From Cryphonectria parasitica EP155 (lineage: Eukaryota > Ascomycota > Sordariomycetes > Diaporthales > Cryphonectriaceae), in contig NW_024468911.1 of the NCBI RefSeq assembly GCF_011745365.1, positions 1,358,759 to 1,422,758 on the forward strand: DNA of 64,000 nt. Direction: 5' to 3'. Positions 53,067-54,609 of the stretch are shown piece after piece. Positions within the stretch are counted from its first letter, which is position 1. The number at the start of each line of letters is the position of its first letter. The notes below the pieces were generated by a model. The model was given only the letters and a program-made list of their open reading frames with translations, was not told the DNA's origin and did no database searches. Made by a program: the position numbers and the translations under genes.

Positions 53067-53680
53067 GTGTTCCCATATATAAATGTGCGTCGTCACTTAT
53101 TGGTTCCGTTCAGAAGACCGGGCATCAAGTTCCTTTGCTGCCCTGGACCAGGCCGGCTCTCAAGATGTAATACAGGAGCCCTAATTTCAGAGCAAGCACA
53201 GCTTTGAGCCATCTCGTAATGTCTACTGTTCAGAATGTTTCCTACCTGTAAGCAAGACATCGTTTATGTGTCATTCTGGGTTGACTATGCCATTTGAACA
53301 CACTACATCCTCCCTAAAGGGAGTCGGACAGTGCCGTAAAAAAACAAGCTAACACAACAACTACCCAAACATCCTCAGCCTCCTAAACGTATTGCAGGAA
53401 AGATGCTCAGATGTCGTGAGAGCCAAATACGGCTAATCTCACCCATGTACAGACACTCATAGAAGTACTGGCTGCTGGTTTTACATTCATCCTCCTCACC
53501 CGGGGAAAGGAAAGCAAATGAGGAAACGTAACAACTAATCGTACCCACTTTATACAAATGAAAAATCGTCGCTTTCTTCCCAGTGGTACGCGTCGACCGA
53601 CTCGCCTTGCCCTTTAGCGAGCCCCACAACCCACAAGAAAAGAGACCACGAGTTGAAGTTCGTAATTATTCAACGAATAA
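53067..53680. other. intergenic
   Basis: 614 bases from the DUF3500 stop to the tRNA gene. No coding signal. A TTTT run (AAAA on + at 53638-53641) about 40 bases beyond the tRNA end could act as its RNA polymerase III terminator. Confidence 0.45.
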
Positions 53681-53716
53681 GGGTCTTGCCGCGGATTGAA
53701 CGCGGGACCTCTCGCA

Positions 53717-53733
53717 ATGATGAATAGGGTTGT
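53717..53733 (-). other. canonical tRNA intron (position 37/38), 17 nt
   Basis: ACAACCCTATTCATCAT lies directly after G37. Its CCCTA is the exact complement of TAGGG in the anticodon loop, forming the anticodon-intron helix recognised by the eukaryotic tRNA splicing endonuclease. Confidence 0.85.
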
Positions 53734-53752
53734 CCCTAAGCGAGAATCATAC

Positions 53753-53810
53753 CTGAGATGATTGTTAGAATGGAATGGAACATGGTGATAATTATGGGGG
53801 TTCTACTAAC
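53753..53810 (-). other. 58-nt spliceosomal-intron-like insertion in the tRNA D loop
   Basis: Read on the minus strand it starts GTTAGT, ends ATCTCAG, and has TTCTAAC as a branch-site-like sequence, with CTAAC ending 11 nt before the final CAG. Its length falls within the range of the mRNA introns in this window (for example 55, 70 and 75 nt). Precise removal joins TCTAGTG to GTATGATT, the standard tRNA-Pro D arm. Confidence 0.75.
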
Positions 53811-54061
53811 CACTAGACCACAAGACCAATTCAATGTTGACATTGTTTGCCACTCCTCTTCGACAACATTATAACCAACATACTTTGCAAATAGGCCAAT
53901 GAGTATTCACAATCACCGCCAAGACTTGTCACTACTATTACAGTAACATTATATTATATCCCGTTATTTCCGTCGGTGAAGAGAAAGGGGGAAAAAGTGG
54001 CAGAAAGAGGAAGTGGGATGGCGGGTTGATATAGACAATGTCTCCGGCTTCAACGAGGTTT

Positions 54062-54168
54062 TAGCTCATGGGGGGTACAAAAAAGTTCGTGGGGGGTACA
54101 AAAAGCTCGGGGGGGGGGGGGGGGTAGAAAACCTCGGGGGTGATACAAAAAGCTCGCAGGGGGTACAG
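54062..54168 (+). repeat. left terminal inverted repeat, G-run subrepeats
   Basis: Built of about five ~20-bp subunits of the form G-run + TACAAAAA + GTTCG/GCTCG. One G run is 16 long (54109-54124). The spacing of G runs could form G-quadruplexes. Confidence 0.85.
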
Positions 54169-54609
54169 ATTGGCTGGACAACGAAAGAGGAACCTGTAAT
54201 GATGCACTGCAGCTAACAAGAGCGATATCGAAGTATCAATCCCTGAATACGGAAATACAACTGAACAATCCGTGCAAGTGCTTCACCGCCTTTGGGGCTA
54301 TTCAAGTGTATAACAAATGAATACTTAGATTGACGACTGAAGAGCTATATCTAGTGGTCTATCTAATGGTAATGATCGTGTCCTTATATATCCAGCTCTT
54401 CATCGTGGCTCATCTGGATCACCTGGTCTGGCTCACCGTGATTCAGCGAGTAGCTCACTCTCGATCTAGTGAGCAGCTCACTTTGGGTTGGTAATCCTGA
54501 TCCTAACCCTTGCTTACGTAATCCTTACTGGTTGTCTGACGTTGGGTCGTGACACTTTGGTTTCTTGTTGGCTGGGCTTGTTTTGTGATCTGCATGTTGG
54601 ATGGGTCAT

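Follow-up and report, generated by a model that had tools for sequence, protein, structure and literature searches.

Can a tRNA gene carry an intron of the kind found in mRNA? The question is raised by a tRNA-Pro(AGG) gene (L001) on the minus strand of a 64,000-nucleotide (nt) stretch of Cryphonectria parasitica EP155 DNA (contig NW_024468911.1, positions 1,358,759 to 1,422,758; hereafter the window). Its D loop is interrupted by 58 nt that begin with GTTAGT, contain TTCTAAC and end in CAG. An initial annotation of the window had proposed that an mRNA-type intron, perhaps introner-like, had landed in a tRNA and is spliced, or that a recent insertion had killed the gene. Judging from the sequence of the insertion and its relatives, the tRNA-Pro gene is very probably live and its D-loop insertion a spliceosomal intron of the U2 type, one of at least five such tRNA introns (two in tRNA-Pro, one in tRNA-Glu(UUC) and two in tRNA-Tyr genes).

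The insertion is found exactly as annotated, at 53810-53753, and reads GTTAGT...TTCTAACA...ATCTCAG, flanked by TCTAGTG on its 5′ side and by GTATGATT on its 3′ side. Without these 58 nt, L001 is a 72-nt tRNA-Pro(AGG), with the discriminator C73 counted, plus a 17-nt intron at the usual tRNA position 37/38 (53733-53717), which had also been noted. ARAGORN finds no tRNA with the insertion in place and reports tRNA-Pro(agg) i(37,17) after its removal, bearing out the claim that a GT..AG cut restores the tRNA. Four placements of the junction yield the identical product, one of which is GT..AG. The 37/38 intron carries CCCTA, which is able to pair with TAGGG of the anticodon loop.

Five tRNA genes with interrupted D loops

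The genome (43.8 Mb, 17 contigs) of C. parasitica EP155, the chestnut-blight fungus (order Diaporthales), was searched for related genes. A P-type ATPase encoded in the window shares 99% identity with a protein of this strain, and the relatives of a sirtuin agree with the order. Homology to the L001 gene identified four places, L001 itself and three further tRNA-Pro(AGG) genes. In one of these, L002, 62 nt are inserted at the D-loop position interrupted in L001 (GTAAGT...ATCTAACA...ATCTCAG), and in the other two, L003 and L004, the D loop is uninterrupted and the 37/38 intron is the only one. The mature L001 and L002 sequences differ at one of 72 positions (position 57, A or G, both of which the B box allows), and their D-loop introns match in 42 of 64 alignment columns, including the donor region, the branch site and the acceptor.

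Two tRNA-Tyr genes, L078 and L079, form the two lowest rows of an Rfam tRNA search (19 and 18.4 bits; cut-off 29). Their insertions lie slightly earlier than those of the Pro genes, between CTCAGT and TGG. The mature exons of the two genes are identical and both introns differ, the 37/38 introns being 40 and 14 nt long. A genome search gave just these Tyr loci and a third, L061, whose D loop has no insertion. The fifth interrupted gene, tRNA-Glu(UUC) (L044), was detected by an exact genome pattern consisting of the A-box ending AGTGG, GTNNGT, CTNAC and AGGT. Thus three of the five genes (L002, L078 and L079) were detected without using splice signals.

The inventory comprises ~75 tRNA loci (63 Rfam rows, four from homology, L044, four further loci and three Phe loci that were left unread), so that D-loop insertions of this kind occur in 5 of ~75 loci of an incomplete list. 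The Rfam search is itself incomplete, as none of its 63 rows falls on contig C8 although C8 holds L004, and searching with tRNA sequences from other species returned the three Phe loci only. Since L003 and L004, the Pro genes with a 37/38 intron alone, are likewise unmatched at E<=1, a missing Rfam match for an interrupted gene does not count as evidence.

Splice signals and excision

All five insertions (58, 62, 66, 65 and 63 nt in L001, L002, L044, L078 and L079) start with GTNNGT, contain the branch motif CTRAY as CTAAC or CTAAT, and end in YAG, either CAG or TAG. The branch A precedes the 3′ splice site by 12, 12, 15, 12 and 11 nt, respectively. Fungal introns have the donor GTRWGT (nearly all others carrying one mismatch), the branch site RCTRAY and the acceptor YAG, with a distance of 6-36 nt (PMC5832005). 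The donors fit GTRWGT completely in three insertions and with a single mismatch in two, and R precedes CTRAY in three of five, both Pro introns having T at that place.

The signals coincide with the junctions that restore the tRNAs. After GT..AG removal, ARAGORN names all five genes correctly (Pro agg, Pro agg, Glu ttc, Tyr gta and Tyr gta), and with the insertions left in it names none, L044 being called Leu. The Tyr genes have a single placement of the junction that restores the tRNA, namely GT..AG; four or five placements, GT..AG being one of them, do so in the Pro and Glu genes. When the letters of each insertion were permuted with the exons kept, the full signal set appeared at an allowed junction in 1, 2, 4, 0 and 0 of 200,000 shuffles (L001, L002, L044, L078 and L079).

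Alternatively, excision of the D-loop insertions might fall to the tRNA splicing endonuclease, as happens in red algae and archaea, and D-arm introns do exist in Cyanidioschyzon merolae, nucleomorphs and archaea (PMC4090602 and PMC3978253). The initial annotation had named a bulge-helix-bulge as the structure that would explain the insertion in this way, and we looked for it in all five genes, the criterion being a central helix of 4 bp flanked on either side by a 3-nt bulge at the junction. The standard central helix forms only 0-2 of 4 pairs at every allowed junction in all five. An alternative helix geometry reaches 4/4 pairs at one junction in L044 and up to 3/4 in the Pro genes, but just 1/4 and 2/4 in the Tyr genes. 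No helix recurs across the five genes, and a bulge-helix-bulge intron was rejected. Such excision would also leave GTNNGT, CTRAY and YAG unexplained in all five, and, according to PMC4090602 and PMC3978253, yeast Sen54 reportedly contacts the D arm and sets the catalytic subunits by distance. Removal by the endonuclease is therefore highly unlikely.

It is similarly hard to credit that there is no excision at all, with the long D loop retained or the transcripts degraded or otherwise used, as this explains neither why removal of GT-AG restores the D arm nor why the splice signals are there. We know of no D-loop insertion of 58-66 nt in a functional tRNA.

The initial annotation had also pointed out that the first G of the intron keeps the A box complete. 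This holds for L001, whose A box is complete because the intron starts with G, and for the other Pro gene and the Glu gene; it fails for both Tyr genes. The AGTGG pattern has 12 matches, three of which are tRNA genes (the two Pro genes and L044), and these same three are the only ones of the 12 with a full A box (TRGYNNAR) before the donor. Other A-box endings gave 12 (AATGG), 14 (AGCGG; 13 distinct loci) and 26 (GTTGG) matches and no additional tRNA gene genome-wide. A relaxed AGTGG pattern gave 18 matches with the same three tRNA genes, and the 12 new ones have neither box. A full A box precedes the donor at 0/12 AATGG, 0/13 AGCGG, 0/26 GTTGG and 0/12 new relaxed-AGTGG loci. B-box-like words within 110 nt downstream accompany the three tRNA genes and L039 in the AGTGG set, and none was counted in the other sets, where the downstream sequence covered was just 42-51 nt at three of the GTTGG loci. 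A wider look placed one at 115 nt in L045; L039 and L045 both lack an A box. The GTTGG pattern leaves out A boxes ending in ATTGG, AACGG and others, and the patterns omit Tyr-type positions. The density of GT..CTRAY..AG in 165,555 bases (54 observed vs 33-50 in 10 order-1 resamples) is too weak a contrast for use.

Table 1. Coordinates and main characteristics of the window gene, the other interrupted tRNA genes and the U6 intron
Feature	Position	Strand	Remarks
tRNA-Pro(AGG) gene L001, 147 nt	53681..53827	minus	exons 53827-53811, 53752-53734, 53716-53681; C73 included
D-loop insertion, 58 nt, with spliceosomal intron signals	53753..53810	minus	donor GTTAGT, acceptor TCAG
Branch-site-like CTAAC	53764..53768	minus	branch A to 3′ splice site, 12 nt
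Canonical tRNA intron at 37/38, 17 nt, ACAACCCTATTCATCAT	53717..53733	minus	from sequence and ARAGORN
A box TGGTCTAGTGG (tRNA positions 8-19)	53810..53820	minus	A-box positions per PMC3978253
B box CGTTCAATCCG (tRNA positions 52-62)	53692..53702	minus	positions per PMC3978253; GTTC starts 119 nt after position 8
Nearest T4 run, possible polymerase III terminator	53638..53641	minus	39 nt downstream of L001
L002, second interrupted tRNA-Pro(AGG)	C1:7034138-7034269		found by homology, not by splice signals
L044, tRNA-Glu(UUC)	C5:2536531-2536602 (matched part)		66-nt D-loop insertion and 13-nt 37/38 intron
L078, tRNA-Tyr	C6		65-nt D-loop insertion, GTCAGT...TACTAACC...ACAG
L079, tRNA-Tyr	C1		63-nt D-loop insertion, GTGAGT...AACTAATT...ATAG
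U6 intron GTGAGT...CCTACTAACAGCCTTTGCAG, between GATAC and AGAGAAGATTAGC	L123 1484-1539	+	C4, U6 match 3111685-3111790

In the window itself, positions 54060-54170, ~230-340 nt upstream of L001, hold a poly-C tract and repeats resembling CGAGCTTTTTGTA that lead into runs of C.

Integrity and role of the interrupted genes

With regard to gene integrity, the cloverleaf, anticodon loop, A and B boxes and T-run of a functional tRNA gene are found in the interrupted genes, the exceptions being the T-run of L001 and the A boxes of the Tyr genes. The decayed body of a pseudogene is not seen, as ARAGORN assigns the right isotype to every gene once the GT-AG segment is out. The first T5 run lies 5 nt (L002), 3 nt (L044), 20 nt (L078) and 7 nt (L079) downstream, thus within 20 nt in four of five genes. 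From position 8 to the B box, the interrupted genes span 119-150 nt vs 61-62 nt in the uninterrupted Pro genes.

Several observations weigh against spliced introns in live genes. The T4 run of L001 is late at 39 nt, with only 2 of 61 comparison tRNA genes having a later one, and its first T5 is 115 nt downstream. The Tyr genes both have an altered A box, in which the intron falls before the GG. Both the donor GTTAGT and the branch site TCTAAC of L001 are one base off the published consensus. Intact paralogues are present for Pro (L003 and L004) and Tyr (L061), and the interrupted copies could therefore be dispensable. The pattern that detected L044 itself requires the splice signals. Moreover, the patterns are not enriched relative to reversed controls, with 12/38, 12/9, 14/13, 26/23 and 18/26 matches (pattern/control for AGTGG, AATGG, AGCGG, GTTGG and relaxed AGTGG), so the argument depends on their coincidence with tRNA bodies. 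Finally, the likeness of the intron bodies beyond the signals is not significant within either pair, being reached by 101 of 2000 signal-keeping shuffles for Pro and 402 of 2000 for Tyr. The descent of each pair hence leans mainly on position and isotype, which make a common origin likely.

Some of these observations would suit dead genes: redundant tRNA copies would have been broken by insertions and now be pseudogenes, with splice-like signals left over from the inserted DNA. The uninterrupted Pro and Tyr paralogues and the late T4 run of the window copy fit this, as does the presence in the same genome of a tRNA-Leu copy with a deleted D arm (L104). It would also match how eukaryotic tRNAs with D-arm insertions are usually seen, namely as pseudogenes (PMC4090602). 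However, the mature bodies of all five genes are recognised as the right isotype while the intron interiors differ, the donor, branch and acceptor are all kept in the five insertions, and T5 runs close behind four of them are retained. In addition, the one Glu(UUC) gene found, in searches of limited sensitivity, is insertion-bearing. The killing of L001 by a recent insertion, as the initial annotation had envisaged, is accordingly unlikely, because two isotypes have pairs with intact bodies, differing interiors and persisting splice signals; for the five genes together, we consider pseudogenes improbable.

In sequence, the case for introns of the spliceosomal type in the five tRNA genes is thus strong, and from it we infer their splicing. 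Transcription, the order of events and the function of the product are likewise reconstructed. Polymerase III would transcribe L001 from its A and B boxes, after which U1 and U6 would recognise GTNNGT and U2 would recognise CTAAC, and the D-loop intron would leave as a lariat by the action of the spliceosome. Either afterwards or earlier, the Sen tRNA endonuclease and tRNA ligase would take out the separate 37/38 intron. Since the two introns are proposed to use separate routes, the mature tRNA would require two unrelated splicing machineries, and single tRNA genes seem to hold both kinds of intron.

When the mature Glu(UUC) sequence was used to query the genome, one Glu locus was returned, L044, which carries the insertion, and a rough scan of the 63 Rfam-search sequences, of limited sensitivity, showed no TTC anticodon. 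L044 is the sole tRNA-Glu(UUC) gene found, though with searches of this sensitivity it is not proven to be the only one. If it is, intron removal would be required for the reading of GAA, and translation may therefore depend on the spliceosome. The chances seem evenly balanced that the only tRNA-Glu(UUC) gene, along with several Pro and Tyr genes, needs the spliceosome to make tRNA. GAA translation would then rest on mRNA-type splicing acting on a polymerase III transcript that the tRNA endonuclease cuts as well, and splicing defects would in that case directly limit tRNA supply. Confirmation would mean that the spliceosome is able to act on polymerase III pre-tRNAs, that tRNA supply is tied to splicing and that tRNA finders may miss or misname real genes. 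D-loop GT-AG introns are now a target for rescans of fungal genomes.

Three other loci are of note. L104 (C6:80815-80858, plus strand, extended upstream) is the tRNA-Leu(CAG) copy mentioned above; apart from the deleted D arm it is close to L073, and it is probably a pseudogene. L111 (C3:724298-724736) is a tandem tRNA-Thr(CGT) pair with a short anticodon-loop insertion in the first gene and none in the second. L072 (C3:2329267-2329557, minus strand) is a tRNA-like gene to which ARAGORN gives the name Pro(TGG); its T loop, GTGCAAATC, is atypical and its acceptor ends match poorly.

Comparison with known introns

A literature search of open-licence papers returned no report of spliceosomal introns in tRNA genes, though a report outside that set is possible. 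The D-loop insertions nevertheless share features with several known systems. Like introners, they are short spliceosomal introns, and a few-base repeat is found at the Pro and Glu junctions. In contrast to introners, the five C. parasitica introns have no further copies: a genome search with all of them, including the 58-mer, matched just those five, and the introner-like origin suggested by the initial annotation was rejected.

Similar to the D- and T-arm tRNA introns of C. merolae, nucleomorphs and archaea, the insertions are located in the D arm, and some of the genes in those lineages have additional introns. Those introns are of the bulge-helix-bulge type or are removed by a mechanism that is unknown (3-24 nt in the Guillardia nucleomorph), whereas those of C. 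parasitica have spliceosomal signals and no recurrent bulge-helix-bulge. Canonical 37/38 tRNA introns, which are processed by the Sen endonuclease and a ligase, are also present in the interrupted genes, as in the case of the 17-nt intron of L001. They differ from the D-loop introns in position, length and signals, and their pathway operates without GT-AG motifs (PMC13149111).

Further parallels are found in the introns of fungal U3 small nucleolar RNA genes, which are GT-AG introns of the normal fungal type, clustered at few places of a small structured RNA, with intron-bearing and intron-free copies within one genome (PMC5832005). According to this 2017 paper, frequent interruption by an intron is known for U3 and U6 but for no other small structured RNA. 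U3, of course, is not a tRNA.

The U6 small nuclear RNA gene is a polymerase III gene, and in C. parasitica it contains a 56-nt intron (GTGAGT...TACTAAC...GCAG). Fungi and, by its sequence, C. parasitica U6 thus offer a precedent for the splicing of a polymerase III transcript. The U6 intron also holds a B-box-like GGTCGCGCGTTCGATTC and may for that reason be the source of the U6 B box. Together with the shared anatomy of the five tRNA genes, the U6 intron of the same type supports the initial proposal of an mRNA-type intron in a tRNA. As in the U6 genes of Schizosaccharomyces pombe and other fungi, an mRNA-type intron interrupts a polymerase III gene that is small and structured. The C. parasitica hosts differ from U6 in being tRNA genes, with internal A and B boxes and, besides the D-loop intron, another of the endonuclease type. 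The intron is ordinary; it is the host gene that is unusual.
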